From: Streptosporangiales bacterium
GTDB taxonomy: Bacteria; Actinomycetota; Actinomycetes; Streptosporangiales; WHST01
Direction of reading: 5' to 3'
NCBI GenBank assembly: GCA_009379825.1
Contig: WHTA01000001.1
Span: forward strand, 62,001 to 126,000
Length of the DNA: 64,000 bases
This document shows, in pieces, positions 32,431 through 50,057 of the stretch. Below the pieces are notes generated by a model. That model had not been told where the DNA came from. It was given only the letters and a program-made list of their open reading frames with translations, and did not search any database. Positions within the stretch are counted from its first letter, which is position 1. Every line of letters starts with the position of its first letter. Both the position numbers and the translations under genes were made by a program.

Positions 32431-33977
32431 GCGCCGGGGCCAGGCCGGCGCGGGTGCTGGCGGTGTGGTGTCCGGACTGGCCGGTGGTCAGCGTCGCCGG
32501 TCGGTCGGAGCGGGAGCAGCCGGTCGCGGTCGTCACCGGTGGGCGGGTGGTTGCCTGCTCCGCGCCGGCTCGCGCCGCGGGTGTACGCCGCGGGCAGCGG
32601 CTGCGCGACGCGCAGGGGCGCTGTCCGCAGCTGCAGGTACTCGACGACGACCTCGCTGCCCAGGTGCGGCTGTTCGAGCAGGTGGTGGCCGGGGTGGAAC
32701 AACGGTGTCCCCGGGTGGAGGTGATCCGGCCCGGGCTGTGTGCCGTGCCTGCCCGCGGCCCGGCGCGCTACTACGGCGGTGAGCAGGTGCTCGCCGAGCT
32801 GATGCACGAGACGGTCGCCGCGGCGGGCGTCGAGTGCCGGGTCGGCGTCGCCGACGGGCTGTTCGCCGCCGTGCTCGCGGCCCGCGCCGCCGAGTCGGAC
32901 ATCCGCATCGTCCAGACGGCCGAGACCGCTGGCTTCCTCGCCGGGCACCCGGTGAACGTGCTCGACCGGCCGGAGCTGTCCGGGCTGCTGGTGCGGCTTG
33001 GCATCCGCACCCTGGCCGACTTCGCCGCGCTGCCAGGCGAGGACGTGTTCGCCAGGTTCGGTGCCGACGCGGCGGTCGCGCACCAGCTCGCGCGCGGGCG
33101 CGAACCGCGCCGGCTGGCGCCGCGTACGCCCGCGCGCGACCTCGCCGTGCAGCTGACGTTCGACCCTCCGGTCGAGCAGTTCGAGCAGGTGGTGTTCACC
33201 GCGAAGTCGCTCGCCGACGAGCTGCACACCACCCTGGCCAGGCACGGGGTCAGCTGCGTACGGGTCGAGGTGGAGGTGACCACCGACGACGGCAGGTGCT
33301 GGTCGCGGGCGTGGCGGCACGACGGGCTGTTCTCCGCGTCGGCGGTCGCCGAGCGGGTGCGTTGGCAGCTCGACGCGTGGCGTACGGCCACGGCGGCCGA
33401 CGAGGCGCTGACCGGTGGCCTGGTCCGGCTCCGGCTGGTCCCCGACCAGCTGGTCCCGGACAGCGGCCGGCAGCTGGCGCTGCGGGGCGGCCGGGCCGCG
33501 GACGACCAGGTGGAGCGGGCGGCCACCCGCGTGCAGACGATGCTCGGCCACGCCGCGGTCACGCAGCCGGTCCGCGTCGGCGGTCGCGGGCCGGGCGACC
33601 AGGTGCTGCGGGTGCCGTGGGGCGACGCGCCCGCCGACATCCCACGGGACGGCGGCTGGCCGGGCCGGGTGCCCACGCCCGCGCCGGCCGTCGTCCACGT
33701 CGAGCCGCCTGCGGTCGCGGTCGTCGACGCCGCCGGCGCGCCGGTCACGGTGGACGGCCGGTGCGCCGCCTCGGCGCCCCCGCACCGGTTGGTCGTCGGG
33801 CCGCGGTCGGCCGCGCTGGCCGTCACCGGCTGGACCGGGCCCTGGCCGGCGCACGAGTACTGGTGGGACCCCGCGCGCAGCCAGCGGTCGGTCAGGTGCC
33901 AGCTGGTGACCGCGGACGGCCGCGGCTGGTTGCTGGTGCTGCGGCAGGCCAGGTGGTACGTCGAGGCGGAGTACTAG
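32427..33977 (+). CDS. imuB: ImuB, catalytically dead Y-family polymerase
   Basis: 516 residues. It starts RVLAVWCPDWPVV, where active Y-polymerases have a DxDxFF-type metal motif, so the acidic pair is missing as in all ImuB proteins. The finger region LRDAQGRCPQLQVLDDDLAA, the VADGLFAAVLAARAA palm segment, and the helix-hairpin-helix LGIRTLADFAALPGEDVFAR are intact. The C-terminal tail ends WYVEAEY. ImuB links ImuA', DnaE2 and the beta clamp. No clear clamp motif was identified by eye. The frame is intact although dnaE2 is broken. Confidence 0.9.
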   Translation: MSAGARPARVLAVWCPDWPVVSVAGRSEREQPVAVVTGGRVVACSAPARAAGVRRGQRLRDAQGRCPQLQVLDDDLAAQVRLFEQVVAGVEQRCPRVEVIRPGLCAVPARGPARYYGGEQVLAELMHETVAAAGVECRVGVADGLFAAVLAARAAESDIRIVQTAETAGFLAGHPVNVLDRPELSGLLVRLGIRTLADFAALPGEDVFARFGADAAVAHQLARGREPRRLAPRTPARDLAVQLTFDPPVEQFEQVVFTAKSLADELHTTLARHGVSCVRVEVEVTTDDGRCWSRAWRHDGLFSASAVAERVRWQLDAWRTATAADEALTGGLVRLRLVPDQLVPDSGRQLALRGGRAADDQVERAATRVQTMLGHAAVTQPVRVGGRGPGDQVLRVPWGDAPADIPRDGGWPGRVPTPAPAVVHVEPPAVAVVDAAGAPVTVDGRCAASAPPHRLVVGPRSAALAVTGWTGPWPAHEYWWDPARSQRSVRCQLVTADGRGWLLVLRQARWYVEAEY

Positions 33978-34138
33978 GGCATGCCTCCCAACGGCGGTCG
34001 AGGCGAGCGGCGTCCAGAGCGGTCGATAGCGGCGGCGGACGAGGCGCTCGTATTGGGCATACTCGCGCTGAGGACAACGCCGCTAGGGGCCGTCCTGGGC
34101 GTCGCGCAGCCCGGACAGGTGTTGGGAGGCGTGCCCTA

Positions 34139-35901
34139 ATGGGGTGGCAGAACCCGGCCATTCCGTGGCGGGAGTTCGAGCGGCGGCTGTCGTGGCACGG
34201 TGGCCGCCGACCGCCGGACGTCGCGTCGCCGGCGGCGGAGCAGCCGCCGGCCCGTACGGCGGCACCGGCGGAGCAAGACGAGCAGCCGCCGTGGGCGGAG
34301 CTGCACTGCCACTCTTCGTACAGCTTCCTGGACGGCTGCTCCTCCCCCGCAGCACTGGTGGCCGAGGCGCTGCGGCTGGGGATCCAGACGCTCGCCCTCA
34401 CCGACCACGACGGCATGTACGGCGTCGCCCAGTTCGCCGAGGCCGCGCGCGGCACCGGGCTCCGTACGGTCTTCGGCGCGGAGCTGAGCCTGGGGCTGGC
34501 CGCACCGCAGACCGGGGTGGCCGACCCGCAGGGCCGACACCTGCTGGTGCTGGCCCGCGACAGCACCGGGTACCGGCGGCTGAGCCGCGCGATCGGCGCC
34601 GCCCAGCTCGCCGGTGGGCAGAAGGGCCGGCCGCGTTACGACCTCGACCAGCTGAGCGCGGCGCACGACGGGCACTGGGTGGTGCTCACCGGCTGCCGCA
34701 AGGGCGCGGTGCCGGCCGCGCTCGCCACGTACGGTGCGGCGGCCGCGGAACGGGAGCTGCGCGAGTTGGTGGACCGGTTCGGCCGCGACAATGTCTGCGT
34801 CGAGCTGGTCGACCACGACCAGCCGCTCGACGACGCGAGGAACGACGCCCTCGCGGTGCTCGCCGACCGGGTCGGGGTGGGCGTGGTCGCGTCGAACAAC
34901 GTGCACTACGCCGGACCGAGTGAAGCCGACCTCGCCGCCACCGTTGCCGCCGTGCGGGCCAGGCGCAGCCTGGACGAGATGGCCGGCTGGCTGCCCGCCA
35001 CCCGCACCGCACACCTGCGCTCGGGCACGGAGATGGCCGCCCGGCTGGCCAGGTTCCCCGGCGTCCAGGAGGCGACCGCGGAGCTCGCCCGCGCCTGCGC
35101 GTTCGACTTCGAGGAGGTGGCGCCACAGCTGCCGGACCGTAAGGTGCCTACCGGCTACACCGAGTCGCAGCACCTGCGGCGGCTCACCCGCGAGGGGGCG
35201 CTGCGGCGCTACGGGTCGCTCGTCGAGCACCCGCTGGCGTACGCCCAGCTGGAACGCGAGCTGGACGTCATCATCGGCGGCGGGTACACCGGCTACTTCC
35301 TGATCGTGCACGAGATCGTGGCGTTCTGCCGGGAGGAGCGGATCCTCTGCCAGGGCCGTGGCTCCGCGGCGAACTCCGCGGTGTGTTACGCGCTCGGCAT
35401 CACCGGTGTCGACGCCGTACGGCACCAGCTGCTCTTCGAGCGGTTCCTCTCCCCCGGCAGGGACGGCCCGCCGGACATCGACCTGGACATCGAGAACGCC
35501 CGCCGCGAGGAGGTCATCCAGCACGTCTACGACACCTACGGGCGGGAGCACGCCGCACAGGTGGCCAACGTTATCTCGTACCGCCCGAAGATGGCGATCC
35601 GCGACGTGGGCAGGGCGCTCGGCTACAGCCCGGGCCAGCAGGACGCGTGGTCGAAGTCGGTGGGGCTGGGTGAGTTCGAGTCGTCCGACGAGCTGCCGGC
35701 CATGGTGCGCGACCTCGCCACCAGGGTGAAGCGGCTGCCCCGTCACCTGGGCATCCACTCCGGCGGCATGGTGATCTGCGACCGCCCCGTCGGCGAGGTG
35801 TGCCCGGTCGAGTGGGCGCGGATGCCCGGTCGCAGCGTCATCCAGTGGGACAAGGACGACTGCGCCTGGCTCGGCCTGATCAAGTTCGACCTGCTCGGGC
35901 T
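34139..35901 (+). pseudogene. dnaE2: dnaE2 5' portion, cut by the 19.2-kb insert
   Basis: ATG 34139 follows GGGAGG at 34124-34129. The PHP domain (AELHCHSSYSFLDGCSSP, LALTDHDGMYGV) and the catalytic palm (GRGSAANSAVCYALG, PPDIDLDIENARREEVIQHV with the first two catalytic Asp) are intact. The copy ends right after WLGLIKFDLLGL, which holds the third catalytic Asp. The frame then runs into foreign sequence and stops at 36232. The missing fingers, HhH and OB domains lie at 55118-56643. DnaE2 is the error-prone polymerase of the SOS mutasome; this allele cannot make a full enzyme. Confidence 0.92.
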
Positions 35902-35937
35902 TTTCGCTGCTTTGCGTCAGTGTCTCGTTGGGATGAC

Positions 35938-36179
35938 GCGGGACACGCCCACCCACCGCCGGCGGTGTCTGCTTCCTCAACCTCGAAGACGAAACCGGCA
36001 TGGCCAACATCATCTGCCCACCCCCAACCTACCGCCGAACCAAGAAAACCCTCCTCGACAGCCCCGCTCTGTTCGTCACCGGCCTCCTGGAGAGCGCCAA
36101 CGGCGCTATCAACATCGTCGCCCAACGGATAGAGCCGTTCTCCCTCGCCGTCGCGACGAGGTCACGCAACTGGCGATAG
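35938..36179 (+). pseudogene. C-terminal (OB-fold) remnant of a second, divergent dnaE2
   Basis: In its own frame this encodes RPPTAGGVCFLNLEDETGMA, NIICPPPTYRRTKK, LFVTGLLESANGAINIVAQR and a terminal SRNWR before TAG 36177-36179. It aligns along its whole length with the DnaE2 tail encoded at about 56397-56643 (RPPTAGGVVFLSLEDETGLV ... ITHSRDFR) but is clearly diverged. The frame differs from the one running in from native dnaE2, so it is not translated from it. It is foreign DNA at the left edge of the insert, in the same orientation as the host gene. Confidence 0.85.
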
Positions 36180-36205
36180 CTGGCTCTCATACGCGACGTT
36201 CCCGA

Positions 36206-36581
36206 TCACCCGTCAGGTCTGGACCCACCTGACCAAGCGTCGCCTAGAACGCCTCTTGCGATGATCACTCTCTGGACCTCGCTGGTGCCTTCGTAGATGC
36301 GGAACAGCCGTGCGTCTCGGTAGAACCGCTCGACCGGGACGGATCGCATGTAGCCGAGCCCGCCGTGGATCTGGACAGCACGGTCGGCGACTCGGTCGAC
36401 CATCTCGGAGCAGAAGAGCTTCGTACACGACGGCGCGGTTCGTCGGTCGCTGCCTTCGTCGTACTCGCGGGCCGCCTGCAGGACCATCGCACGACCCGCA
36501 TAGAGCTCGGTCTGTGAGTCAGCCAGTTCGCACGAGTGTCCTGACGGCCTCGAGTACCGCGGCGAAGTCCGCGTCGTCCAT
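36206..36581 (-). pseudogene. Acyl-CoA dehydrogenase with large internal deletion
   Basis: ATG 36581 (preceded by GGGAG) encodes only MDDADFAAVLEAVRTLVR before the frame is lost near 36525. The rest, in another frame, is the C-terminal ~110 residues: ELADSQTELYAGRAMVLQAA, VQIHGGLGYMRSVPVERFYR and RLFRIYEGTSEVQRVI, the FAD/dimer helices and the catalytic-Glu motif IYEGT. About 250 residues are missing. Acyl-CoA dehydrogenases carry out the first oxidation of beta-oxidation. It would have been the last gene of the minus-strand run. Confidence 0.8.
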
Positions 36582-36607
36582 AGCGGCTCTCCCTCTTGGC
36601 TGTAACG

Positions 36608-38770
36608 TCAAGGAGTGGTTGGCACGTCGGTGAGCCTGGCCAGGCAGTCGACGGCGGCCAGCGCCTGCCCGGATCGATCGACGAGCAGCGGATTGACGTC
36701 GAGCTCGGCGACTTCTTCGGCGAGATCGGTCGCGAGCCAGGACACTCGTACGACTACATCGGCGATGGCGTCGAGGTCACAGGCAGGACGGCCGCGGACC
36801 GGACCGAACAACCGGCTGCCGCGTAACGAGAGCAGCATTCGCCGAGCGGTGTCGAGGTCGACCGGAGCGACCGCGGCCGCGCTGTCGGCCAGGACCTCGA
36901 CGAGCACGCCCCCGAACCCTACGACGACGACCGGGCCGAACCCGATGTCATGCTTGGTTCCAACGATCACTTCGAGGTCGCCGTCGACCATGCGCTGCAC
37001 CAGCAGCTCCGCGTCCGCGAGCTCAGCGGTCGACGCGCGGGTGAGCAGCGTCCGCGCCGCCTCTCGTACCTGGTCGGCATCGACCAGGTCGAGCAGCACT
37101 CCGCCGATGTCGCTCTTGTGCCCGACATGGTGGGAGAGCAGCTTGACCGTGACTGGTCCGCCGAGCTCATCCAAGGCGGACACGGCAGCCTCAGGGGTGG
37201 CTGCGCGGCGTGACCCCGCGCTGGGTATGCCGTACGCGGCGATCAGCCTTGTGGACGCGTACTCGTCGAGCTGGGTCTGCCCGGCGGTCCTGACCGCGTC
37301 GAGAACCGCACGGGCCGCCGTCGGGTCGACACCGGACGGACGGTGCGGATCGGGTACCGCCGGCCGGAGGCTGTAGTCGACGAGTGCGCCCAGAGCTGCG
37401 GCCGCCCGTCCCGGGTCGTTGTAGCAGGGAATGCCCTGCGCTCGCAACAGCCGCTGCGCATCGCCGCTGCCACCGGTCCACACGACCACGAACGGACGGT
37501 CGGTGGACCGGTGTGCACAACCGATCACGTCGACCAGCTGCTCGGCGTGCTTGTCGGCATTGCCAAGCAGCACAGCGACCAGATGGGAGTCCGGGTGTGC
37601 CAGGGCGACATCGAGCGCGCACCGCAGCAGGTCGGGATCGGCGAGCAGCGCCGCCGTCAAGTCGATCGGGTTGCTCGGGGACCCGTAGGGTGGGAGAACC
37701 GCGGCCATTCGGTCCTGCCAAGCCTGGTCCCAGGCGGTGATCTCGACGCCGTGTGCGCTGGCCGCGTCTGCCATGAGCACACCGGCGCCGCCGGAGAGCG
37801 ACAATGTGGTGAGTGAGCGGCCATGTGCACGGCGGCCGGTGGCGAACAGCTGGGCGGCATCGAGCAGGGCGTTCATGCCGTCGACCCGGACGATGCCGAA
37901 CTGGTGCGCTGCTCCTTCGAAGACCGCGTCCTCTCCGGCAAGGGAGGCGGTGTGTGACTGCGCGGCCCGGGCGCCGGCTTCCGACCGTCCTACCTTCACG
38001 GCGAGGATGGGCTTGTCGAGGCGGTGGGCACGGCGCGCCACCTCCAGCAGCCGCCGTCCGTCGCTGACGCCTTCCAGGTAGGCGAGCAGTACCCGCGTCT
38101 CGCCGGCGTCCAACAGTGCGTCCAGGACGTCGGCGACCGAGAGATCGACCTCGTTGCCGGTGTTGACGTAGTGCGAGATCCCGATCCCAGCGTGTAGCGC
38201 CTCGGTGAAGACGAAGGACCCGAAGGCACCACTTTGGCTGACGAAGGCTACAGGACCGTCCCGCAGCTCGATCGTCTCGTCCAGCGCTGAGGTGAAGGTC
38301 GGAACGGCTCGGTCTCTGACCCCGATCATCCCAAGGCAGTTCGGGCCGAGGACACGGACTCCGGTCTCCGCGATGGCGGCTTCGAGCTCCAGCTGCAGCT
38401 GCGCGCCCCGCTTACCCGATTCGCCGAAGCCGGACGCTCCCACGATGGCCGCGGAGATCCCGTTCTTTCCGCAGGCACGTACCGCAGTTGGCACCTGCTC
38501 GGCCGGCAGCATGATCATGGCGAGGTCGATAGTGCCGGGGACCTCGTCGAGGCTGCGATAGGCGGGCAGGCCCTGCACCTGCGGGCGAGCGGTGTTGATC
38601 GGGATGACGCGGCCGGTGAACCCGAACCGCTGCAAGTAGTCGACAGGTCGGCCGGAGAGCTTGACGGGGTTGTCGGAGGCACCGATCACCGTGATGGACC
38701 GTGGATAGAGCAGCTTCCACAGATCGGCGAGTTGGCCGGTGGATTTCGAGGCTGTGGCCGTGCTACCCAT
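36608..38770 (-). CDS. ADP-forming acyl-CoA synthetase (fused alpha/beta)
   Basis: 720 residues from ATG 38770. N-terminal CoA-binding domain: LYPRSITVIGASDNPVKLSG and LAMIMLPAEQVPTAVRACG. Middle ligase domain: GPVAFVSQSGAFGSFVFTEA and the phosphohistidine segment QSHTASLAGEDAVFEGA. C-terminal ATP-grasp: GPVTVKLLSHHVGHKSDIGG and VVVGFGGVLVEVL with ELDVNPLLV. It forms acyl-CoA from an acid, ATP and CoA, releasing ADP. It is downstream of the aldehyde dehydrogenase with a 22-base gap, so it likely activates the acid that enzyme makes. Confidence 0.9.
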   Translation of the reverse strand: MGSTATASKSTGQLADLWKLLYPRSITVIGASDNPVKLSGRPVDYLQRFGFTGRVIPINTARPQVQGLPAYRSLDEVPGTIDLAMIMLPAEQVPTAVRACGKNGISAAIVGASGFGESGKRGAQLQLELEAAIAETGVRVLGPNCLGMIGVRDRAVPTFTSALDETIELRDGPVAFVSQSGAFGSFVFTEALHAGIGISHYVNTGNEVDLSVADVLDALLDAGETRVLLAYLEGVSDGRRLLEVARRAHRLDKPILAVKVGRSEAGARAAQSHTASLAGEDAVFEGAAHQFGIVRVDGMNALLDAAQLFATGRRAHGRSLTTLSLSGGAGVLMADAASAHGVEITAWDQAWQDRMAAVLPPYGSPSNPIDLTAALLADPDLLRCALDVALAHPDSHLVAVLLGNADKHAEQLVDVIGCAHRSTDRPFVVVWTGGSGDAQRLLRAQGIPCYNDPGRAAAALGALVDYSLRPAVPDPHRPSGVDPTAARAVLDAVRTAGQTQLDEYASTRLIAAYGIPSAGSRRAATPEAAVSALDELGGPVTVKLLSHHVGHKSDIGGVLLDLVDADQVREAARTLLTRASTAELADAELLVQRMVDGDLEVIVGTKHDIGFGPVVVVGFGGVLVEVLADSAAAVAPVDLDTARRMLLSLRGSRLFGPVRGRPACDLDAIADVVVRVSWLATDLAEEVAELDVNPLLVDRSGQALAAVDCLARLTDVPTTP

Positions 38771-38792
38771 GGTCGATACTCTCCTCGCTGAG

Positions 38793-40160
38793 TCAACCAA
38801 TGACACGGACCAGCTTCTTGTTCGCGAACTCCTCGATGCCGTACCTGGCCAGCTCGCGTCCGACCCCGGAGGCTTTGACGCCACCGAACGGGAGGTCGGG
38901 TGCGCTCTTGCTGGTGCCGTTGATCCACACCATGCCGGCCTCGAGCCGCTCGGCCAGCGCACGGGCCTGGTCGATGTCGAGCGTGTAGACCGCAGCGGCC
39001 AGCCCGAACGGCGTGTCGTTCGCGAGGGCGACGGCGGCATCCGCCGAAGCCGCTCGGTGGACGACCGGCCCGAACAACTCCTCCCGATAGGCGCGCATGG
39101 CAGGGGTCACGTCGGTGAGCACGGTTGCCTCGTAGAACGAGCCCGCGCCGGCGATCCGGTGTCCGCCGGTGAGTACGGTCGCGCCCTTGGCGACCGCGTC
39201 GTCGACCTGCGCGGCGAGCTCGTCGACGGCCTCGCGCGACGACAACGGCCCGAACGTGGTGTCCGGGTCGACGGGATCGCCGGGAACCTGCGCACGCATC
39301 GCCGTCGCGAACCTGCCGACGAACGCGTCGAAGATGTCGTCCAACACGATGAAGCGCTTGGATGCGGTGCATGCCTGGCCAGCGTTCGTCAGCCGGTTGT
39401 TCACAGCCGCGGCGACGGTCGCGTCGAGGTCGTGGCCGTCGAGCACGATGAACGGGTCGGACCCGCCGAGCTCGAGCACGTACTTCTTCAGGTGACGTTC
39501 GGCGACCTCACCAACCGCCGATCCCGCTCGTTCCGAGCCGGTGAGCGACACGCCCTGGACACGGGAATCTGCGATCATCTGCGCAATCTGCGTACTGTCG
39601 GCGAACACGTTGACATACACGCCGGCGGGCAGCCCGGCGTCGGTCATCAGCGCCTCGATGGCCAGGGCGGACTGTGGGCAGTTGCGGGCGTGCTTCAACA
39701 CGACCGTGTTGCCGAGCAGGATGTTCGGAGCGGCGAACCTGGCGACCTGATAGTGCGGGTAGTTCCACGGCATGATGCCGACGAGTGGTCCGATCGGCTC
39801 GGTTCGCACCAACGCCTCGCCCCGGCCGGCGATCTCCAGCGGCTCGTCGGCCAGGAACCGTTCGCCGTGGTCGGCGTAGTACTCGTAGATGTCGGCCGTC
39901 AGCACGATCTCGCCTTTGGCCTGGGTGACGGGTTTGCCCATCTCCAGCGTCGCCGTCAACGCGAGCTCTTCAGAGCGTTCACGATACAGGGCCGCGACCC
40001 GGCGCAACACCTCGGCGCGCTGCCGCAAGGAGGTCACTCGCCACATCCGGTAGGCAGCAGAGGACTCCTCGAGCACGTCCTCGATCTCCGCGGCCGTCGC
40101 GACGGGAAACACCTTGAGCACGGTCCCGGTCCCCGGATGACGCGTGACATAGTCGCCCAT
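38793..40160 (-). CDS. NAD(P)-dependent aldehyde dehydrogenase
   Basis: 455 residues from ATG 40160, placed by AGGGAGGG. Motifs: PLVGIMPWNYPHYQVARFAA (cofactor and Asn site), VSLTGSERAGSAVGEVAERH, the general base Glu in YVLELGGSDPF, and the nucleophile in NAGQACTASKRFIVLDD. It resembles short succinate-semialdehyde dehydrogenase-type enzymes. In the insert it would oxidise the aldehyde produced by the zinc alcohol dehydrogenase and pass the acid to the ADP-forming synthetase. The gene lies behind the activator gene on the same strand; a candidate activator site is at 40241-40255. Confidence 0.92.
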   Translation of the reverse strand: MGDYVTRHPGTGTVLKVFPVATAAEIEDVLEESSAAYRMWRVTSLRQRAEVLRRVAALYRERSEELALTATLEMGKPVTQAKGEIVLTADIYEYYADHGERFLADEPLEIAGRGEALVRTEPIGPLVGIMPWNYPHYQVARFAAPNILLGNTVVLKHARNCPQSALAIEALMTDAGLPAGVYVNVFADSTQIAQMIADSRVQGVSLTGSERAGSAVGEVAERHLKKYVLELGGSDPFIVLDGHDLDATVAAAVNNRLTNAGQACTASKRFIVLDDIFDAFVGRFATAMRAQVPGDPVDPDTTFGPLSSREAVDELAAQVDDAVAKGATVLTGGHRIAGAGSFYEATVLTDVTPAMRAYREELFGPVVHRAASADAAVALANDTPFGLAAAVYTLDIDQARALAERLEAGMVWINGTSKSAPDLPFGGVKASGVGRELARYGIEEFANKKLVRVIG

Positions 40161-40240
40161 GGTCCCTCCCTTCGTCGCGTGCATGCCGACCAGACTCATA
40201 GTCTCGGAGACCGGCAGAGGTTGCGGTTGTGCCGATACGG

Positions 40241-40255
40241 AACATGCGTGCTGTT
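40241..40255. promoter_or_regulatory. Candidate activator site before the aldehyde dehydrogenase
   Basis: AACA (40241-40244) and TGTT (40252-40255) flank 7 bases and sit in the wider context GGAACA-N7-TGTTGC. The spacing AACA-N7-TGTT recurs before the adjoining divergent operons at 46347-46359, and the GGAACA half-site recurs at 43238. Assignment to the AcoR/MimR-like regulator is inference. Confidence 0.35.
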
Positions 40256-40268
40256 GCGTTCGTGCCGT

Positions 40269-42107
40269 TCATGCGTCGATGCGCAGTGCCACCATCTTGC
40301 GGTAGAGCGTTGTCCTGCCGATACCGAGTGCCTGGGCGGCTTCGGTTCGGTTTCCGCCGGATCGGTGCAGCGCCGAGATGATGGCCTGCCGTTCCGCGTC
40401 TTCCATCAGGGTCAGCTGACGACGGGACCGGGCGTGCTGCAGCCGTGTCGGGAGATCCGTGAGCCGCACCACCCCTCCCGGCATGCGGCAAGCAAGATCC
40501 TCGACGGTCCGGGAGAGCTCGGCGACATTCCCTGGCCACGACCACGCGATCAGCGCCTGCAGCGCCTCCGAGGAGAACGTCGTCTCCCGACGCCCGTCCG
40601 GCAGACCGGTCAGGATGTGGCCCACCAACTGCGGGATCTGTTGCTGTATCTCACGCAACGTCGGCAACCGCACAATGGTCGCCAGCTGGCCCACTAAGGA
40701 CTGGACGTGCTCTTCCGCCGCATCCAGATCGACCGTCATGACCAGCGCAGCACAGCGATCACCCGCAGTGGCGGTAGAACCTGCGGAATCCTGGCATTGG
40801 ACGAGCGCCTTGACCCTGTTAACCTCACGCGGCTCAAGATCCTGCACATGCCGCAGGATCACCGGCCTGTCCTCGGCGAGCGCCTCGCTCGCAGCAGAGA
40901 ACCAGCCGGACTCGTCGTCCCGACGATGACAGGAGACGTCGATGACAAGCGGCGACACGTGAGTGCGGAAGGTACGGTAAACCGCGGACGCAGCATGGAA
41001 CTTGCCCGTCCCTGGTCCGCCGTCGATCGCGACGCAGTCCCGACTGCAGATGGCGTCAATGAGTTGCGTCTGGACGTCCGGCGTCACACTCAGCGACGCC
41101 GCCGGCAGCCGGATCGCCGATCCGGTCAAGACCGTGCCGGCCCGGTGCGGCGGGTCGTGGTCGGCCGGGAGCAGGCGGACGCAGTATGCGGCATCGGATT
41201 CGTGGCTCCCGTCGACCCGCTCCACCACAGCCTCGCGCCATGCGGTGGGCAACGGAATCCCGATCCGTTGTGGTCCCCGCTCCAGCGGGGCGTCGGACAG
41301 GTGTGTCCACAACAAGGCGTGTGAGTCGCTGCTCACGTAGGTCAGCCCTGCGGTGTTGGCGAACATCACCCGTTCGTTGACGACGAGGACGGGGTCGTGC
41401 TCTCCCTGGTTGGCGACCAGGTATGCCTGGATGAGGGCACGCTCCTTGGCGCCGCGCATCGCGGTCAGGTTGCTCTCGATCTGACGACCGACATCGATCG
41501 CAACGGCGTACGTGAGCGGTGTCGCATCGACGGTGTAGCAGGCCAGGGAGAACGTTCCTACCAGTCGCCCTGTGAAGGGTTCGAAGACTGGAGTGCCGGC
41601 GCAGGTGATGGGTTCGAGCATGTCGTTGTAGTGCTCGCTGCCCCGCACGACGAGCGGACGGCGTTCCGCGATGACGGTGCCCAAGCCGTTCGTCCCGATC
41701 GAGGTCTCCGAGAAGTCGAACCCCTCCGCCGCGAAGGCGTTATCGAGCACGCTGCGCTGGCTGGGTTCACTCACTCGACGCATGATGATCTTGCCGGTGT
41801 GGTCACTGAGGAACATCGCGACCCGGACCTCGCCGATGTGGTCGCTGAGCCGGTCGAAGACCGTGGCCGCGGCTCTCCCCAGTTCCAGCTCGTGTCCGTC
41901 GATCTCCTGGTAGGGGATCTCGTCAGGTCTCGTCGGAACAGTGTCACCGAGGGAACGCCGCCAGCTGCGCTCGATGACGTCTCTCACGCCCACCGCTGAC
42001 GGTCGCACGGCGAGGAGGCCATTGCTCAGCAGGTCGTCCTTCGCCTGCCGGATGCGTTGCTGGTCGGCTGCGGGTCCGGTGGGCCACGGTTCGGCGCTGG
42101 TGTTCAT
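40269..42107 (-). CDS. AcoR/MimR-like Fis-type transcriptional activator
   Basis: 612 residues. The N-terminal sensor (about 60-230) is GAF-like with DFSETSIGTNGLGTVIAERR, the signature of AcoR-type regulators. A degenerate AAA domain follows: its Walker A reads GGPGTGKFHAAS, with Phe where Ser/Thr is needed, and no GAFTGA loop for sigma-54 contact is seen. The C-terminal Fis HTH is intact (RQAIISALHRSGGNRTEAAQ, ALGIGRTTLYRKMVAL). Related regulators control alcohol, ketone and propane oxidation genes in actinomycetes. Its ATG overlaps the alcohol dehydrogenase stop (ATGA), so the two are coupled. Confidence 0.85.
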   Translation of the reverse strand: MNTSAEPWPTGPAADQQRIRQAKDDLLSNGLLAVRPSAVGVRDVIERSWRRSLGDTVPTRPDEIPYQEIDGHELELGRAAATVFDRLSDHIGEVRVAMFLSDHTGKIIMRRVSEPSQRSVLDNAFAAEGFDFSETSIGTNGLGTVIAERRPLVVRGSEHYNDMLEPITCAGTPVFEPFTGRLVGTFSLACYTVDATPLTYAVAIDVGRQIESNLTAMRGAKERALIQAYLVANQGEHDPVLVVNERVMFANTAGLTYVSSDSHALLWTHLSDAPLERGPQRIGIPLPTAWREAVVERVDGSHESDAAYCVRLLPADHDPPHRAGTVLTGSAIRLPAASLSVTPDVQTQLIDAICSRDCVAIDGGPGTGKFHAASAVYRTFRTHVSPLVIDVSCHRRDDESGWFSAASEALAEDRPVILRHVQDLEPREVNRVKALVQCQDSAGSTATAGDRCAALVMTVDLDAAEEHVQSLVGQLATIVRLPTLREIQQQIPQLVGHILTGLPDGRRETTFSSEALQALIAWSWPGNVAELSRTVEDLACRMPGGVVRLTDLPTRLQHARSRRQLTLMEDAERQAIISALHRSGGNRTEAAQALGIGRTTLYRKMVALRIDA

Positions 42108-43162
42108 GACGAGAGCACGATCCGGCCGGGGACCCCTCCGTTGGCGACATCGGTCAAGGAACCGCTGACGCCGGCGAGGTCCAGCGTGCCAGGCACGACC
42201 GGTGAGCGTGGTAGCTCACTGGTCCGTGCGATCGTCACGAGTTGCTGCAGCTCGTCGAGTGTGCCGACGTAGCTGCCCTGGATGGTGATCATCTTCAACG
42301 CCATGAGGGCGGTCGGCACGGTGAGTTCGCCGCCGAACAGCCCGATCTGCACGAGCTTGCCGGCCTTGCCGAGCGCGTTGAAGGCCAGTTCGGCGGTCTG
42401 GGTGTTGTTCACGACGTCGATCACGGCACGGACCGGCCCGCCACATGCCTCGGACAGATCCTGCTGCGCCCGGTCTCCGTCCACCACCAGTGTTGTCGTC
42501 GCGCCTGCAGCCGACGCGAGCCGGAGGTTCGCCGCATTGATGTCGACGGCGCAGACGTTGCGGTGCCCACGCGCGACAAGAACACCGACCACGGTCAGCC
42601 CGACTCCTCCCGCGCCGATCACGACGACGGGCATGTCGGCCGGCAACGGCAGCACCTTGTTCACGGCGCTGAACGCGGTGACACCTGAGCAGGCCAGGGT
42701 GGCCGCCCAGGCAGGCTCCAGTCCGGAGATGTCGATGAGGAACTTCTCGTCGGGGACGGTCACGAGCTCGGCGTAGCCGCCGTGTCTGTTCACCCCGATC
42801 GTTCGGCCGGAGCCGCAGTGATTGTCCAAGCCGGCAGCGCAGAGGTGACACGAGCCGCAGCCGATCCACGGGTAGACCAGCCGCTCCTCCCCGACAGCGA
42901 CGTCGCGGACGTCGGGACCGATGGCTTCGACCCTGCCCACGATCTCGTGACCCATGACCAGCGGGTAGGCAATGCCACGGTCGGTGAGCCGGAGCCTGCC
43001 GCGCCGCCCGAGATCGTAGTACCCCTGCCGGAGATGGGTGTCGGTGTGGCAGACACCTACGTGCAGCACACGCAGGGTGACCTCGCCGGCCCGTGGTGGA
43101 CGGTCGGGCAGTTCGACCTGCCGAACCGTGGTGTCGTCTTCGGTTACGGCGTACGCGTACAC
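42104..43162 (-). CDS. Zinc-dependent alcohol dehydrogenase
   Basis: 352 residues from GTG 43162, chosen because GAGGAG is just upstream; longer starts would read into the ribosome site. Catalytic zinc ligands appear in HVGVCHTDTHLRQG and YPLVMGHEIVGRVEAIG. Structural zinc Cys residues are in CGSCHLCAAGLDNHC. The NAD site is VVVIGAGGVGLTVVGVL followed by VCAVDINAANLRLA (Asp, so NAD-preferring). It would oxidise the alcohol released by ester hydrolysis after Baeyer-Villiger oxidation. It is coupled to the activator gene downstream. Confidence 0.92.
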   Translation of the reverse strand: MYAYAVTEDDTTVRQVELPDRPPRAGEVTLRVLHVGVCHTDTHLRQGYYDLGRRGRLRLTDRGIAYPLVMGHEIVGRVEAIGPDVRDVAVGEERLVYPWIGCGSCHLCAAGLDNHCGSGRTIGVNRHGGYAELVTVPDEKFLIDISGLEPAWAATLACSGVTAFSAVNKVLPLPADMPVVVIGAGGVGLTVVGVLVARGHRNVCAVDINAANLRLASAAGATTTLVVDGDRAQQDLSEACGGPVRAVIDVVNNTQTAELAFNALGKAGKLVQIGLFGGELTVPTALMALKMITIQGSYVGTLDELQQLVTIARTSELPRSPVVPGTLDLAGVSGSLTDVANGGVPGRIVLSS

Positions 43163-43204
43163 AGCCACTCCTCGACTCTGAACAGAGGCTCTGAGCACAT
43201 GATC

Positions 43205-43585
43205 TCATCGATCCCGGCGACGATCATGTTCCAGAACGGAACAGGGGCGGGGCGGTCTCTGCTCCCTCGACGCCGCTGCGCCGCCAGGTGATCGCGAGGC
43301 TGCCGTCTGCGCGGCCGTCGGGAACGGCCCCAACGGCGCGAGGAACGCCCCGGCCACCAACGCGGCGGGACCCCATGCCGACGTGGTGCCGCTGGCACCC
43401 ACCATGCCCCAGCCGCTCTGGATCGAAGAGAACGAGGCGATCGCCATCACGAAGAATCCCAGTGACTGGCCGGCGACCAGGAACTCCTTCGACGACGTCA
43501 TCTTGGAGTTCGCCCAGAGTCCGATGCCGATCATTACCACCAAGTACGCGATGGCGACCCCGAGTATGACGGTCTGCGCATCCAT
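43205..43585 (-). pseudogene. N-terminal remnant of a sodium:solute symporter
   Basis: From ATG 43585 the first ~85 residues match SSS-family transporters: ILGVAIAYLVVMIGIGLWAN, SSKEFLVAGQSLGFFVMAIA and SFSSIQSGWGMVGASGTTSA. At about 43330 the homology ends and the frame becomes low-complexity. A full transporter has about 500 residues, so only the first two or three helices survive. It sits between the first monooxygenase and the alcohol dehydrogenase and probably once imported the substrate. Confidence 0.8.
43227..43243. promoter_or_regulatory. Perfect 6-5-6 dyad upstream of the alcohol dehydrogenase
   Basis: TGTTCC (43227-43232), AGAAC, GGAACA (43238-43243) is a perfect inverted repeat 65-81 bases upstream of the alcohol dehydrogenase start. 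It shares the GGAACA half-site with the region before the aldehyde dehydrogenase. It is the best candidate binding site for the coupled AcoR/MimR-like activator. Confidence 0.5.
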
Positions 43586-43667
43586 TGAAGAGTCCTTCCG
43601 TGGGGCGACGGGTTCAGGGCCAGCGGACGACCCAGGCCGCGTAACAGCTCGTCCTATGAGGCTCGTC

Positions 43668-45290
43668 CTACGAGACCTGTGCCGATGGAGCCATCTCGAA
43701 GCCCGCGTAGCCGTTGCTCGTCACCTCGGCAAGCTGCTGGCGATAGGCCTGCAGGCCAGCCATGTAGAACATGACGGTGTTGGGTTTGCCGGGGATGTTG
43801 GCGCCGAAGATCCAGGAGTCCGCTTTGGGGAACAGCGTCATGTTCGCGATCTCGCGGCAGGTGGTGGTCCATCCCTCCTCTGCCTGCGCGGTCGCCTCGA
43901 TCGATGTCACACCCGACCGCTCCGCGTTGTTGATCAGCTCGGAGATCCACTCACCCTGGGCCTCGATGCTGGGCGGCAGGTTGGTGAAGGGCCCGTTGGG
44001 TCCGAGGATCATGAACAGGTTCGGGAAGCCCGTCGTCGAAATGCCGAGATAGCTGGTCGGTCCGTCCTTCCAGTGCTCCTTGACGGACCTTCCCCCGCGT
44101 CCGCGGATGTCGATCCGGGTGTAGTTGCCGTCGACCGCGTCGAAGCCGGTCGCGAAGATGAGCACGTCGAGCTGGTGTTCCTGGCCGTCCTCGGTCCGCA
44201 CACCCTTCGGCGTGATCTCGGCGATCGGGTTGGCCTTGACATCCACCAGCGAGACGTTGTCGCGGTTGAACGTCTCGTAGTAGCCCGGGTCGCACAGTGG
44301 TCGCTTGGCGTAGAGGTCCGTCGGTGTCAGCTTGCGCGCGGTTTCCGGGTCCTCGACGATCTCCGCGATCTTGGCTCGGATGAACGACGCCGCGGCCTCG
44401 TTCGCCTCCGGGTCCGTGGCGATGTCGCTGAACGTACCGAACATGAAATGGAAACCGCCACCGCGTTCCCATGCCTTCTCAAAGACGCGTTGCCGTTCCT
44501 CCTCCGAAACGCTCATCGCCGCGACGGCGCTCTCCTTGAAGCCGAAGGCGACGACCGAGTTGCGCACGCCGTCCCAGACCTGGTCATAGTTCGCTTTGAC
44601 CGACGCAACATAGTCTTCGGTCACCGGACCGTTGGCGATCGGGACGCTGTACTGTGCCGAACGCTGGAAGACGGTGAGGTGCCCGACCTCCGGCGCGAGC
44701 GCGGTGATCACCTGACATCCGGTGGAACCCGTGCCGAGCACGCCGACTCGCTTGCCGGCAAGGTCGTGTTCCTCGGGCCAGGCGCCGGTGTGGTAGACCT
44801 CCCCCTCGAACGTGTCCCGCCCGGCGATGTCCGGGATGTTCGTCGCAGAGAGCAGCCCCAGGGCAGACACCAGGTACCGCGCGGTGAACGTCTCGCCGGT
44901 GTCGGTGCGGACCTCCCACGCATTCCTCGACTCGTCGAAGACGGCGGACGTGATGCCGGTGTTCAGCTGGATGTCACGGCCGAGGTCGAAACGCTCGACG
45001 ACGTGTTCCAGGTAGGCCAGGACCTGTGATTGCGTGAGGTAACGGGTGTCCCAGGTCCACTGCTGGAGCAGATCCTTGTCGAAGGAGTAGCAGTAGACGA
45101 AACCTTCGGTGTCCGACAATGCTCCTGGGTATCGGTTCCAGTGCCAGGTGCCCCCTACGCCGCTGGCCCTGTCGAACGCCCGGACGGTGAGGCCGAGCTC
45201 ATTGCGTAGCTTGTGGAGCATGTAGATGCCCCCGAATCCCGCGCCCACGACGATCGCGTCGACGTCCGTGCTCGTCTTGCTGGCAGCCAT
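43668..45290 (-). CDS. Baeyer-Villiger monooxygenase, cyclohexanone-monooxygenase type
   Basis: 540 residues. FAD motif AIVVGAGFGGIYMLHKL near residue 12; the BVMO fingerprint FxGxxxHxxxW is exact in FEGEVYHTGAWPEEH; the NADPH motif is VGVLGTGSTGCQV; and the ATG motif FATGFDAVDGNY is present. Size and motifs fit type I BVMOs of the cyclic/linear ketone group. It inserts oxygen next to a ketone, using NADPH and O2, to make an ester or lactone. It is the second gene of the minus-strand run after a hydrolase able to open the product. Confidence 0.95.
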   Translation of the reverse strand: MAASKTSTDVDAIVVGAGFGGIYMLHKLRNELGLTVRAFDRASGVGGTWHWNRYPGALSDTEGFVYCYSFDKDLLQQWTWDTRYLTQSQVLAYLEHVVERFDLGRDIQLNTGITSAVFDESRNAWEVRTDTGETFTARYLVSALGLLSATNIPDIAGRDTFEGEVYHTGAWPEEHDLAGKRVGVLGTGSTGCQVITALAPEVGHLTVFQRSAQYSVPIANGPVTEDYVASVKANYDQVWDGVRNSVVAFGFKESAVAAMSVSEEERQRVFEKAWERGGGFHFMFGTFSDIATDPEANEAAASFIRAKIAEIVEDPETARKLTPTDLYAKRPLCDPGYYETFNRDNVSLVDVKANPIAEITPKGVRTEDGQEHQLDVLIFATGFDAVDGNYTRIDIRGRGGRSVKEHWKDGPTSYLGISTTGFPNLFMILGPNGPFTNLPPSIEAQGEWISELINNAERSGVTSIEATAQAEEGWTTTCREIANMTLFPKADSWIFGANIPGKPNTVMFYMAGLQAYRQQLAEVTSNGYAGFEMAPSAQVS

Positions 45291-45335
45291 CAGTGATGCT
45301 CCTTTGCTCGGTAGGTGTCGATAGGCCTGACACGG

Positions 45336-46262
45336 TCAGCCGTGGTACCAGACGGCGATCCGTCGAATCTCCTCGTCCGCTTCCGGTGCGCGGCCAGCGA
45401 GGAAGGGGAAGACGTGCTGCATACCCTCGACGACGGACAACGTCACGTCGACGCTCGCAGCGTCGGCGCTCGCGGCGAGCCGGGTGGCGTTGTCGACGAG
45501 TGACTCGACCGAACCAGCGTTGACGTAGAGCCTCGGGAAACCGGTGAAGTCGGCATACAAGGGATTCGCCAACGGCGTCGTGGGAGCGACCGTGCCACCA
45601 AGCACGCCGGCGATCATGCCCTCGAGCAAACCGACCGTGATCAACGCATCGGTGGCGTCGTTGGTGACCAACGTCTTCCCCTTGTTCTCCATGTCCAGCC
45701 ACGGCGAGAACGCGATCACCCGCCCGGGCAGTGGCCGGCCGTCAGCACGCAGTGCCAACGGGATCGCGACGGCCAGGTTCCCGCCGGCTGAGTCACCGAT
45801 GGTCGCGATGTCGGCCGGCGCGATCCCTCGGTCGGTGAGCGCTAGGAACACCGCGACACCGTCTTCGACCTGCGCCGGATGGACGTGTTCCGGTGCTCGC
45901 CGGTAATCGAGCACGAATGCTGTGACGCCAATCGCTCGCGCGACGTGCGCGGCGAGCTTGCGGTGACTGGCCGCCGACCCTACGGCGAAGCCGCCGCCGT
46001 GAGTGTAGAGCAGGACCTTGGCGCGGTCGGCACCGCTGGGCAGGGCCCAGATGCCAGGTACGCCACCGATCGTCTCCTCCTTGTAGGTGACGTTCTCGGG
46101 TTCGCGGGTGGGCTGGTGCCACTCGTCGAAGATGCTCCGGAGCAACCGTATGTTCAGGTCCGGTGTCGACGCGAGGATCTCGGTCCAGTCCGCGTAGAGG
46201 CTCCTGAGCGTATCTGCGTCAGTTGAGGTCTTCGACTGCTGAGGTTCGGAAGAGACCGCCAT
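45336..46262 (-). CDS. HSL-type alpha/beta hydrolase (esterase/lactonase)
   Basis: 308 residues from ATG 46262, placed by AAAGGAG. The oxyanion motif THGGGFAVGSAASHRKLAAH and the nucleophile motif IGDSAGGNLAVAIPLALRA identify the hormone-sensitive-lipase family. The His of the triad lies in VEGMQHVFPFLAG, and the acid residue is probably the Asp/Glu in NAGSVESLVDNA. It is immediately upstream of the BVMO on the same strand (45-base gap). Hydrolysis of the ester or lactone made by the BVMO is the obvious role. Confidence 0.9.
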   Translation of the reverse strand: MAVSSEPQQSKTSTDADTLRSLYADWTEILASTPDLNIRLLRSIFDEWHQPTREPENVTYKEETIGGVPGIWALPSGADRAKVLLYTHGGGFAVGSAASHRKLAAHVARAIGVTAFVLDYRRAPEHVHPAQVEDGVAVFLALTDRGIAPADIATIGDSAGGNLAVAIPLALRADGRPLPGRVIAFSPWLDMENKGKTLVTNDATDALITVGLLEGMIAGVLGGTVAPTTPLANPLYADFTGFPRLYVNAGSVESLVDNATRLAASADAASVDVTLSVVEGMQHVFPFLAGRAPEADEEIRRIAVWYHG

Positions 46263-46345
46263 CTCGATACTCCTTTGTCCGTAACGGCGGGACCGTGTGA
46301 TGCAGTGTGCGGCCGCAGCCGCCACCGCGGGGTGTACCGATCTGA

Positions 46346-46360
46346 AACACCACACGTGTT
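46346..46360. promoter_or_regulatory. Dyad in the divergent BVMO promoter region
   Basis: AACAC-CACAC-GTGTT at 46346-46360 is a perfect inverted repeat. It contains AACA-N7-TGTT, the arrangement seen at 40241-40255. It lies 84 bases upstream of the hydrolase start and 200 bases upstream of the second BVMO start. It is a candidate site for the AcoR/MimR-like activator. Confidence 0.4.
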
Positions 46361-46528
46361 GGCATGCCGAGGAGCCCGCGGCGACTCCAGCCTGGAGACC
46401 GTGACGCCAAGGGCACGGTCGACCTGGCAGCGCGTCAGATCGACCAGCCATCGCTGCCTGTAGCCGAAGTGCGCGAACTGAGCGCTCTACCCAACCAGCT
46501 CGCTTGCCACCATCCTCATCTTGATTCT

Positions 46529-46543
46529 AATCTACATTAGATT
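46529..46543. promoter_or_regulatory. TetR-type operator before the second BVMO
   Basis: AATCT-ACATT-AGATT at 46529-46543 is a perfect 5-5-5 inverted repeat, 17 bases upstream of the GTG at 46560. The same half-sites with the same 5-base spacing occur next to the tetR gene at 51768-51782. Position over the start region suits a repressor. Confidence 0.7.
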
Positions 46544-46559
46544 CAGGAATGAGGTTACC

Positions 46560-48488
46560 GTGCCGAGAGCCGCGGAACGCATTACCTCCCTCGACGAGGC
46601 GACTCTGCGTGACACCCTCGTCGAGGCCAACGTGCCCACACTGCTGATGGTGCTGTTCCAGCTGAGCGGCAACCGTAGCTGGTTGCGCGAGCCATATCTG
46701 CCCACCCGCATTCCCGGCATGAGCGACCACGACGACGGTGGTCTGTCCCCGGACCTCCAGCAACGTGTGCGGAACGCGGCAGCCACCGCCGTGCTCGCCT
46801 GGGACCAGGGCCGACCGGTCACCGTCCCGGCACCGCGCGGCGACCTGCTGACGACCATGCTCTCGGTGTGCATGGGTGAGCAGGTCGCACCGGACTTCGA
46901 GCCGATGATGGCAGAGGAGCTGGGTTTCGCTCCTGCGCGGTCACGGGTCGTCGACACCGAGAGAGCGGCGGGGTTCCCGGTCGTCGTGATCGGTGCCGGT
47001 GTCTCCGGGCTCGCCGCGACGGTCAAGCTCCGTGAGCTGGGCGTGCCTGTCACTGTGCTGGAGAAGAACGCGACTGTTGGCGGGACGTGGCTGGAGAACC
47101 GTTACCCAGGCGCCGGCGTCGACACACCGAGCCACCTCTACTCGTTCTCGTACTTTCCGCGCCGGTGGACTGCGCACTTCGCGAAACGCGACGAGCTCGC
47201 GCGCTATCTCGAGGAGTTCGCCGATCACTTCGAGCTGTGGCCCCACATCAGGCTCCGCCACGAGGTGACAGCCATCGAATGGGACGACACTGCGCAGCGC
47301 TGGACGGTGACGGTCGTCGGCCCTGACGGCGGTACGGACCGATTCACCGCGCGCGCCGTCGTGACCGCGGTCGGCCAGCTGAACCGCCCCGCCGTGCCCG
47401 ACATCGAAGGAGCAGCCGACTTCACCGGCCCGGTGTTTCACTCCGCGCGTTGGCCAGACGGCCTCGACGTCACCGGGAAGCGCGTCGCCGTCGTCGGCAC
47501 GGGCGCGAGCGCGATGCAGATCGTCCCCGCCGTCGCCGACCGGGTCGCGAGCCTCACCGTCTACCAGCGCTCCCCACAGTGGGTCGCGCCGAACGCCAAC
47601 TACTTCGAACCGGTCAGCCCGCGTAAGGACTGGCTGATCACTCACGTGCCGTACTACCGCGCCTGGTACCGCGTGCGACTGGCGTGGACGTTCAACGACA
47701 AGACACACGCATCGCTGCAGATCGACCCCGACTGGGGTCTCGGACAGCACGCCGTCAACGCGGTCAACGACGGCCACCGCACGTACTTCACCAGATACCT
47801 GATGCGCGAGCTCGACGGCCGCCCCGACCTGCAGGCAAAGACACTGCCCGACTACCCACCGTTCGGCAAACGGATGCTGCTCGACAACGGCTGGTTCAAG
47901 GCGTTGCGCCGGCCGAACGTCGAACTCGTCACAGCACCCGTCACGCGGTTCACCCGTACCGGCGTGGAGACGTCCGACGGCCGCAAACGCCCCGCCGACG
48001 TGGTCGTGTTCGCGACCGGCTTCGAGGCACGCAAGCTGCTCGGCGAGCTGGGCATCCGCGGGCGTTCCGGACGAACCCTCAGGGGCGTCTGGGGCGACGA
48101 CGACGCGTACGCGTACCTCGGCATCACGGTACCGGACTTCCCCAACCTCTTCTTGACCTACGGCCCACACACCAACCTCGGGCACGGCGGCAGCTACATC
48201 ACGGTGGCGGAGTGCCAGGTGAGGTACATCGTCGACCTGGTCGCGCAGATGATCGACACAGACATCACGTCCGTCGAGCCACGCGCGGACGTGACAGAGC
48301 GGTACAATCGCGACCTCGACGACGCACACGCGCGGATGATCTGGACCCATCCGGGCATGGACACCTGGTACCGGAACCGCAACGGGCGCGTCGTCACCAA
48401 CTCACCCTGGCGGATCGTCGACTACTGGGCGCTCACGCGCCGCGCCGACCTCGACGACTTCGTCGTCCGGACCAGGCTGGAAGGCTGA
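46560..48488 (+). CDS. HAPMO-like Baeyer-Villiger monooxygenase
   Basis: 642 residues from GTG 46560, just after GGAATGAGG and the operator; upstream codons in this frame overlap the operator. An N-terminal ~135-residue extension, as in 4-hydroxyacetophenone monooxygenase, precedes the FAD motif VVVIGAGVSGLAATVKLREL. The fingerprint FxGxxxHxxxW is exact in FTGPVFHSARWPDG. The NADPH motif VAVVGTGASAMQIVP and VVFATGFEARKLLGELGI complete the enzyme. It oxidises an aryl or alkyl ketone to an ester. A 3-base gap separates it from an acyl-CoA synthetase, a likely co-expressed partner. Confidence 0.93.
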   Translation: MPRAAERITSLDEATLRDTLVEANVPTLLMVLFQLSGNRSWLREPYLPTRIPGMSDHDDGGLSPDLQQRVRNAAATAVLAWDQGRPVTVPAPRGDLLTTMLSVCMGEQVAPDFEPMMAEELGFAPARSRVVDTERAAGFPVVVIGAGVSGLAATVKLRELGVPVTVLEKNATVGGTWLENRYPGAGVDTPSHLYSFSYFPRRWTAHFAKRDELARYLEEFADHFELWPHIRLRHEVTAIEWDDTAQRWTVTVVGPDGGTDRFTARAVVTAVGQLNRPAVPDIEGAADFTGPVFHSARWPDGLDVTGKRVAVVGTGASAMQIVPAVADRVASLTVYQRSPQWVAPNANYFEPVSPRKDWLITHVPYYRAWYRVRLAWTFNDKTHASLQIDPDWGLGQHAVNAVNDGHRTYFTRYLMRELDGRPDLQAKTLPDYPPFGKRMLLDNGWFKALRRPNVELVTAPVTRFTRTGVETSDGRKRPADVVVFATGFEARKLLGELGIRGRSGRTLRGVWGDDDAYAYLGITVPDFPNLFLTYGPHTNLGHGGSYITVAECQVRYIVDLVAQMIDTDITSVEPRADVTERYNRDLDDAHARMIWTHPGMDTWYRNRNGRVVTNSPWRIVDYWALTRRADLDDFVVRTRLEG

Positions 48489-48491
48489 GCG

Positions 48492-50057
48492 ATGTTCACC
48501 AGCAGCGTGCTGCGCAGCGTGGCGCAGCGGGCGAGGGCAGGCTACCGCGACCGTCCCGCGGTGTCGTTGGAAGACGGGCCCACGTGGACGTACGGCGAGC
48601 TCGTCGCCAACGTCAACCGGTACGCCAACGGCCTGCTCGACCTCGGCGTGACCGCGGGCGACCGTGTCGGCTTGCTGATGCGCAACTCGCTCGAGTACTG
48701 GGCCGCCTACCTCGCCACCACGAGGATCGGGGCGATCGCCGTACGGCTGAACTGGCGACTGGCGCCGGCCGAGCTCGACTACGCACTGCGCGACTCAGGC
48801 GCGACGGTACTGTGCCTCGACGACGCCTTCACCGGCGAGCTGCGCCAGATGCTCGGCGTGCTGCCCGACCTGACGCCGGTGGCCTTCACAGAAGGCGCCG
48901 ACCCGTTCGCGACGCAGCCGGCTACCGAACCACCGGTTGATGACCCGGCGGCGACCGACCCGTGCATGATCATGTACACGTCGGGCACCACGGGACGCCC
49001 CAAGGGCGCGTTGTGGTCGCACGACACGACGCTGTGGCAATGCGCCATCCAGGTCATGCAATGGAAGTACGACAAGAATCTCGTCTGCCTGTCCACCACG
49101 CCGATGTACCACGTGAGCGCGGTCGAGGACTGGGCGCTGCCGGCGTTGATGCTCGGCGGCCACGCGGTGATGATGCGCTCGACCGGCCTGCGCCCTGAAC
49201 GGATCGCCGCGATGGTGCGACGACACGGTGTCACGGACACTTTTCTCGTCCCTTCCGTCATCTACGACCTGCTCACGTCGGACGCGCCCGGCGCGCTCGA
49301 CCTGCCCAGCCTGCGCCGGGTCGTGACGGGTGGGTCGCCGATGGCGGCGTGGGCGGTGACCAAGATGCGGCAGGCGCTCCCCGACGTCTCGCTGGAGCAA
49401 GCGTACGGACTCACCGAGGGTGGCCCGATCTCCACGGTCATGGACCCCGCCGACCTCGACACCCATCCCGCCAGCGTCGGCACACCGATGCCGCTGGTCG
49501 AAGTACGCATCGCGCGCCTCGACGACCTCGCGGCGGACGCCGCAGCAGACCAGGAGGGCGAGATCTGGGTCCGCGGCCCAGCGACGTGCGGCGTCTACTA
49601 CAACAAGCCCGAGGCAACGGCGGCGACGTTCGTCGACGGCTGGTGCAGAACAGGCGACCTCGGCCGGCTCACCGCCGACGGTCACCTCTACGTCGTCGGC
49701 CGTGTCAAGGACATGATCATCAGCGGCGGCGAGAACATCTACCCCGCCCAGGTCGAGGCGGTGCTCCTCGATCACCCGGCGGTGAAGGACGCAGCCGTCA
49801 TCGGCATCCCGGACGCCAGGTGGGGTGAACGCCCATGCGCGGTCATCGTCACCAGCCCCGGCATGACGGTCACCGCAGACGAGCTGGTGGCGCGCTGCCG
49901 CGGCCAGCTCGCTGGCTACGAATGCCCGCGACACGTGGTGCTCGTCGACGAGCTCCCCCGCAACGCCTCGGGCAAGGTACTCAAGCGCGTTCTGCGCGAC
50001 CAGTACGCATCGCTGGGGACGCGAGGTCGTGGGATGGATCCAAATACAGCCTCGTGA
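48492..50057 (+). CDS. AMP-forming acyl-CoA synthetase/ligase
   Basis: 521 residues. ATP/AMP motifs are clear: MYTSGTTGRPKGALWSHDT, YGLTEGGPISTV, GWCRTGDLGRL, GRVKDMIISGGENIYPAQVE and the C-terminal Lys in LPRNASGKVLKR. It activates a carboxylic acid to its CoA thioester through an acyl-adenylate. Being 3 bases after the HAPMO-like BVMO, it would activate the acid set free from that enzyme's ester. Its last 77 bases overlap a decayed maoC-like frame on the other strand. Confidence 0.93.
   Translation: MFTSSVLRSVAQRARAGYRDRPAVSLEDGPTWTYGELVANVNRYANGLLDLGVTAGDRVGLLMRNSLEYWAAYLATTRIGAIAVRLNWRLAPAELDYALRDSGATVLCLDDAFTGELRQMLGVLPDLTPVAFTEGADPFATQPATEPPVDDPAATDPCMIMYTSGTTGRPKGALWSHDTTLWQCAIQVMQWKYDKNLVCLSTTPMYHVSAVEDWALPALMLGGHAVMMRSTGLRPERIAAMVRRHGVTDTFLVPSVIYDLLTSDAPGALDLPSLRRVVTGGSPMAAWAVTKMRQALPDVSLEQAYGLTEGGPISTVMDPADLDTHPASVGTPMPLVEVRIARLDDLAADAAADQEGEIWVRGPATCGVYYNKPEATAATFVDGWCRTGDLGRLTADGHLYVVGRVKDMIISGGENIYPAQVEAVLLDHPAVKDAAVIGIPDARWGERPCAVIVTSPGMTVTADELVARCRGQLAGYECPRHVVLVDELPRNASGKVLKRVLRDQYASLGTRGRGMDPNTAS

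Follow-up and report, generated by a model that had tools for sequence, protein, structure and literature searches.

Homology-facilitated illegitimate recombination, a process in which a partner gene at one end and an illegitimate closure on very short matches at the other bring in foreign DNA, has been seen in natural transformation of three species and in E. coli conjugation (PMC3240628). It has been described in several bacteria, mostly with microhomologies of 3-10 bp, and a similar length of recipient DNA is usually lost in the published cases (PMC3240628). The same process was proposed to underlie the displacement of the 3' ends of Rhs genes and of type VI secretion (T6SS) effector genes, where a constant 5' part is followed by a foreign 3' end with its downstream genes and then by the displaced native 3' end (PMC5361080), and some integrative elements likewise bring along a 3' end of the gene that they target, which is thereby restored. 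The locus described here, which lies in a window of 64,000 nucleotides from a Streptosporangiales bacterium (the whole stretch of DNA that was analysed), resembles all of these, as a host dnaE2 gene is interrupted by an island that begins with a second, foreign dnaE2 tail. However, in contrast to the cases of PMC3240628, there is no loss of recipient DNA, the insert far exceeds the typical length of 1 kb, and the stretch of donor homology expected next to the join is missing. Unlike at the Rhs and T6SS loci (PMC5361080), the gene concerned encodes a repair polymerase, the foreign 3' end does not form an in-frame fusion and the tail brings no apparent benefit, while the differences to the 3'-end-restoring elements are that no integrase is found, that the insertion lies far from the 3' end of the gene and that the gene is not restored.

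The host dnaE2 follows directly downstream of a Y-family ImuB-like gene and is split into two parts on the forward strand. The 5' part (34139-35901) encodes residues 1-588 with the PHP and Pol III alpha NTPase domains (Pfam PF02811, PF07733), and the 3' part (55118-56643) encodes the finger, HHH and OB-fold domains (PF17657, PF14579, PF01336), so that the split falls between PF07733 and PF17657 at residue 588 of about 1100. Two congeners, G001 and G002, carry an intact dnaE2, to which the 5' part has 72-74% and the 3' part 73-75% amino acid identity; both halves are about equally near to the congeners (72-75%) and are placed in one and the same genus group. The intervening 19,216 bp (35902-55117) are flanked by two exact copies of GGGCT (35897-35901 and 55118-55122), and removal of these 19,216 bp together with one GGGCT copy restores an open frame that aligns without gaps across the join to both congeners, with 46 and 41 of the 60 residues spanning the restored join being identical. 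Since the halves join at the same codon and without a gap relative to the congeners, the event was a clean insertion at a single point, flanked by a 5-bp repeat and without loss of any host base. By chance, the junctions would share 5 bp or more in about 0.9% of cases. The initial sequence-only reading had correctly placed the island inside dnaE2, but its proposal that an incoming piece replaced the tail and later lost the middle by deletion does not hold, as the host gene lost nothing: its halves overlap by 5 bp and continue one another at a single codon. With the empty site complete, a replaced tail and a subsequent large deletion in the host gene are ruled out. A single frameshift is present near 55565 in the 3' part, as expected for a dead gene. 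Judging from the interrupted frame, the insertion probably disabled DnaE2, and would explain why the strain has probably lost this mutagenic polymerase.

At the left tip of the island, and in the orientation of the native dnaE2, positions 35946-36179 (forward strand) encode the last 77 residues and the stop codon of a second DnaE2 OB fold; the frame 35943-36179 translates as TRPPTAGGVCFLNLEDETGMANIICPPPTYRRTKKTLLDSPALFVTGLLESANGAINIVAQRIEPFSLAVATRSRNWR, with the stop at its end, in agreement with the peptide of the initial sequence-only reading. The segment matches the OB-fold family PF01336 (E 1.3e-7, exceeding the curated cut-off), it can be aligned to DnaE2 tails right up to the stop codon, and its strong matches in other genomes lie mostly at the ends of long DnaE2-like frames. 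The native dnaE2 tail is the one strong relative that the segment has within the genome (53% amino acid identity, E 1.9e-23), and positions 56410-56643 of this tail align to it with a DNA identity of 61.5% overall and 46.8% at third codon positions. Translation, Pfam and genome searches therefore bear out the earlier claim of a divergent second DnaE2 end that is clearly different from the native one; the end of the span proposed for it (35938-36179) was correct, whereas recognisable dnaE2 begins only at 35946, and the native tail is indeed found at the suggested 56.4-56.6 kb. Two other origins were considered and rejected, namely a recent copy of the native tail, given the identities of 53% and 61.5%, and an unrelated OB-fold protein, given the PF01336 match and the DnaE2 matches across genomes. 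The segment is the OB-fold tail of the DnaE2 family, but just 77 codons are left, which do not share the reading frame of the host gene, and the segment has no polymerase capacity.

The sequence-only reading had suggested that a protein search and a phylogeny of the OB-fold segments might reveal the donor lineage, and both point to the host genus. Among 395 genomes of the class and 347 of the order (about 740 in all), the top match to the remnant was the intact dnaE2 of the congener G002, with 65% amino acid identity (101.8 bits) and 70% DNA identity, followed by 89.5 bits and 56% for the best match outside the genus and by 84.9 bits and 53% for the native tail. Against a further set of genome contigs, which may omit records close to the host genome, the remnant gave just 40-55% matches. 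Phylogenetic trees, which were based on a short segment and have a long remnant branch, placed the remnant as sister to G002. The tree of 54 rows supported this pairing with 99/93 and the genus group with 87/78; for the smaller tree, of 19 rows, the values were 88/90 and 68/85. The alternative pairing of the remnant with the native tail was not rejected (AU p 0.17 for protein and 0.22 for DNA). Thus, as far as these alignments tell, the donor was probably close to or within the host genus, with a sister relation to the native tail still compatible with the data. The expectation that the donor lineage would carry catabolic genes beside dnaE2 was disappointed, as the frame after dnaE2 in G002 resembles a glyoxalase rather than a catabolic block, and in none of about 200 loci, many of which extend just 1.5 kb beyond the gene, does an acyl-CoA dehydrogenase in convergent orientation follow dnaE2.

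The idea that the island belongs to a family of elements carrying a replacement 3' end is unsupported. Several genomes listed in the searches carry two dnaE2 tails, apart from one another, but among the genomes listed from the roughly 740 of the class and order no other has two such tails close together and none has an element bearing a dnaE2 tail; nor was a recombinase recognised among the island ORFs searched. Lone dnaE2 tails that lack the rest of the gene are present in four other genomes (L193, 8376-8591; L200, 2238-2456; L191, 8054-8557; L197, 8078-8368), and two genera of one family keep the DnaE2 OB fold alone in an open frame. Decay that repeatedly proceeded from the 5' side could account for these lone tails, or else the tail may have kept a role, and their occurrence in decayed form in other lineages indicates that survival of the OB fold only is an ordinary outcome of dnaE2 decay. 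As a separate observation, about 100 residues are missing from the interior of dnaE2, ahead of the OB part, in a bog actinobacterium (G424, L189, 9727-9795).

The island as a whole has a GC content of 66.9%, compared with 70.8 +/- 1.8% in the surrounding 98 kb. Directly after the foreign tail, and tail to tail with it, lies a C-terminal fragment of an acyl-CoA dehydrogenase on the reverse strand (36206-36487; PF00441, E 8.3e-28, covering only profile positions 70-150), whose frame continues as an open but unmatched extension to about 36600 and whose closest relative among the fetched loci is about 52-53% identical. It is followed on the same strand by an open reading frame resembling NDP-forming acyl-CoA synthetases (36608-39040; PF13549, PF13607, PF13380; the true start is probably further in), an aldehyde dehydrogenase (38793-40199; PF00171, E 1.8e-132), a transcription regulator with GAF and Fis-type HTH domains (40269-42107; PF01590, PF25601, PF02954), a zinc-type alcohol dehydrogenase (42104-43198; PF08240, PF00107), an FAD-dependent, FMO-like monooxygenase (43668-45290; PF13738, PF00743) and an esterase-like alpha/beta hydrolase (45336-46451; PF07859). 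The remaining genes are a second FMO-like monooxygenase (46521-48488, forward; PF13738, PF00743), an AMP-forming acyl-CoA ligase (48492-50057, forward; PF00501, PF13193), a further alpha/beta hydrolase (50450-51286, reverse; PF12697), a TetR-type regulator (51814-52494, forward; PF00440, PF17932) and, near the right edge, a frame-broken relic of an FAD-dependent oxidoreductase of the DAO type (53527-54690, forward; PF01266 over three ORFs). Relatives of the first monooxygenase with 69-70% amino acid identity occur in a small number of genomes from a different family of the order, but the two congeners gave no hit at E 1e-150. In the second, which is 655 residues long, about 150 residues ahead of the FAD domain are without a Pfam match. 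The right edge (53140-54690) holds frame-broken genes, with what looks by eye like the last part of an amidohydrolase just ahead of the DAO oxidoreductase. While both edges are decayed, the genes in the middle appear intact, which would fit selection for a pathway involving monooxygenase, esterase and dehydrogenases. No transposase or integrase domain was recognised by Pfam among the island ORFs searched, and the island ends carry no terminal inverted repeats better than those of random pairs. The island is a decayed relic of mostly catabolic genes that corresponds to no known kind of mobile element.

Here we propose a one-sided, homology-guided capture of DNA that lay beside the dnaE2 of the donor, closed by end joining. 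A chromosomal piece that in a related actinobacterium spanned the end of dnaE2 and the neighbouring catabolic genes would have been captured at a break in the host dnaE2; it would have been guided to this site, and into matching orientation, by the homology of the donor dnaE2, and at least one end would have been sealed by end joining or microhomology. The host 5' half would thereby have come to precede the foreign tail and its cargo, with the native 3' half displaced 19.2 kb downstream, and dnaE2 would have been dead afterwards, leaving both relic halves to decay. With dnaE2 taking up about 3 kb of a genome of 6.15 Mb, the chance that an insert starts with a piece of its own target gene, oriented alike, can be estimated at less than 1 in 1000. 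The event was therefore probably guided by homology, and homology at dnaE2 accounts most economically for the position and orientation of the tail. In this respect the earlier suggestion of entry by homologous recombination at dnaE2 is sustained in its homology component, on account of where the tail lies and how it is oriented, although not in the replacement and deletion that it added, as the empty site is complete. GGGCT at both joins, as read in the host sequence, is a candidate for a microhomology in the 3-10 bp range, and as the genome encodes Ku, end joining is available to the host.

Several points count against this capture. Homology at the left join, at residue 588, would demand that an extra deletion be assumed with its edge near the insertion point, since some 430 residues of the donor protein (589 to about 1022) are absent between the host sequence and the foreign tail; a second copy of this donor middle is found nowhere else in the genome, and the deletion may or may not have occurred in the donor copy of dnaE2. 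The 44-bp stretch between host dnaE2 and foreign tail (35902-35945), which is single copy in the genome, also fits poorly. In addition, no host DNA was lost, unlike in most published cases, the DNA divergence of about 30% (nearly 40% between remnant and native tail) disfavours RecA pairing, the assumed donor order was seen in none of the loci compared, and the sister relation of remnant and native tail that the topology tests left standing allows an origin within the lineage. Because of the missing residues, the 44-bp filler and the absence of host loss, our confidence in the capture is evenly divided between belief and doubt.

The clean insertion with its exact 5-bp direct repeat could alternatively be the work of a transposon-like element, with GGGCT as target duplication, the foreign tail as a passenger from an earlier location and the enzyme lost or acting in trans. 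GGGCT has the form of such a duplication, yet microhomology or fill-in of a staggered break explain it equally, and the weak gapped similarity of the outermost bases (TTTCGCTGC..GTCAGTGTC versus TTTCGGCCGCAGTCACTGTGTC) is equalled by 17% of random 30-mers and by 6% in an end-anchored test. As the searched ORFs lack a transposase or integrase domain, the sequence at the left end of the island occurs only once in the genome, and a dnaE2 tail within an insert in dnaE2 would remain an unexplained coincidence, we regard a transposon as rather unlikely. Another origin would be two dnaE2 genes that were once neighbours, either in tandem or through a single crossover with circular DNA, one of which lost its middle and the other its 5' half, with GGGCT being shared dnaE2 sequence. 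Pairs of dnaE2-like genes do occur in some actinobacteria, such as Kribbella sp. ALI-6-A (L137 and L139) and G201, and lone tails left by decay are found elsewhere, as described above. The 44-bp stretch is weakly dnaE2-like in register at the protein level (p about 0.002-0.06, depending on the test), but this resemblance fails as DNA (p 0.24 and 0.67), two independent breaks would be needed at one codon, or at most 15 residues apart if the 44 bp are dnaE2, and both congeners lack a second dnaE2 tail, which makes such a history unlikely. An assembly or binning artefact fusing the dnaE2 genes of two related strains might come to mind for a draft genome of 169 contigs with 3.33% contamination. 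However, two false joins would need to leave a perfect empty site and a 5-bp repeat within one 238-kb contig, and no long identical stretch is common to the two sequences at the joins, so that we consider this very improbable and the least likely of the explanations.

If the capture took place as proposed, divergent gene copies might act more generally as one-sided landing pads through which tens of kb from the chromosome of a related species enter without a recombinase and without host loss, in parallel to what was proposed for the 3' ends of Rhs and effector genes but here at a DNA-repair gene; we offer this extension as a doubtful speculation. The scar on its own is a single decayed case, and a concrete one of a catabolic island entering a chromosome without an identifiable mobile element.

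A last observation concerns the region between the imuB-like gene and dnaE2, where 164 bp (33975-34138) with imperfect terminal inverted repeats of 30 nt look like a solitary MITE. No copy of the repeat of this putative MITE with up to 2 mismatches was found elsewhere in the genome. Its outer 18 bp are nearly exact (TAGGGCAYGCCTCCCAAC), with TA at both tips.
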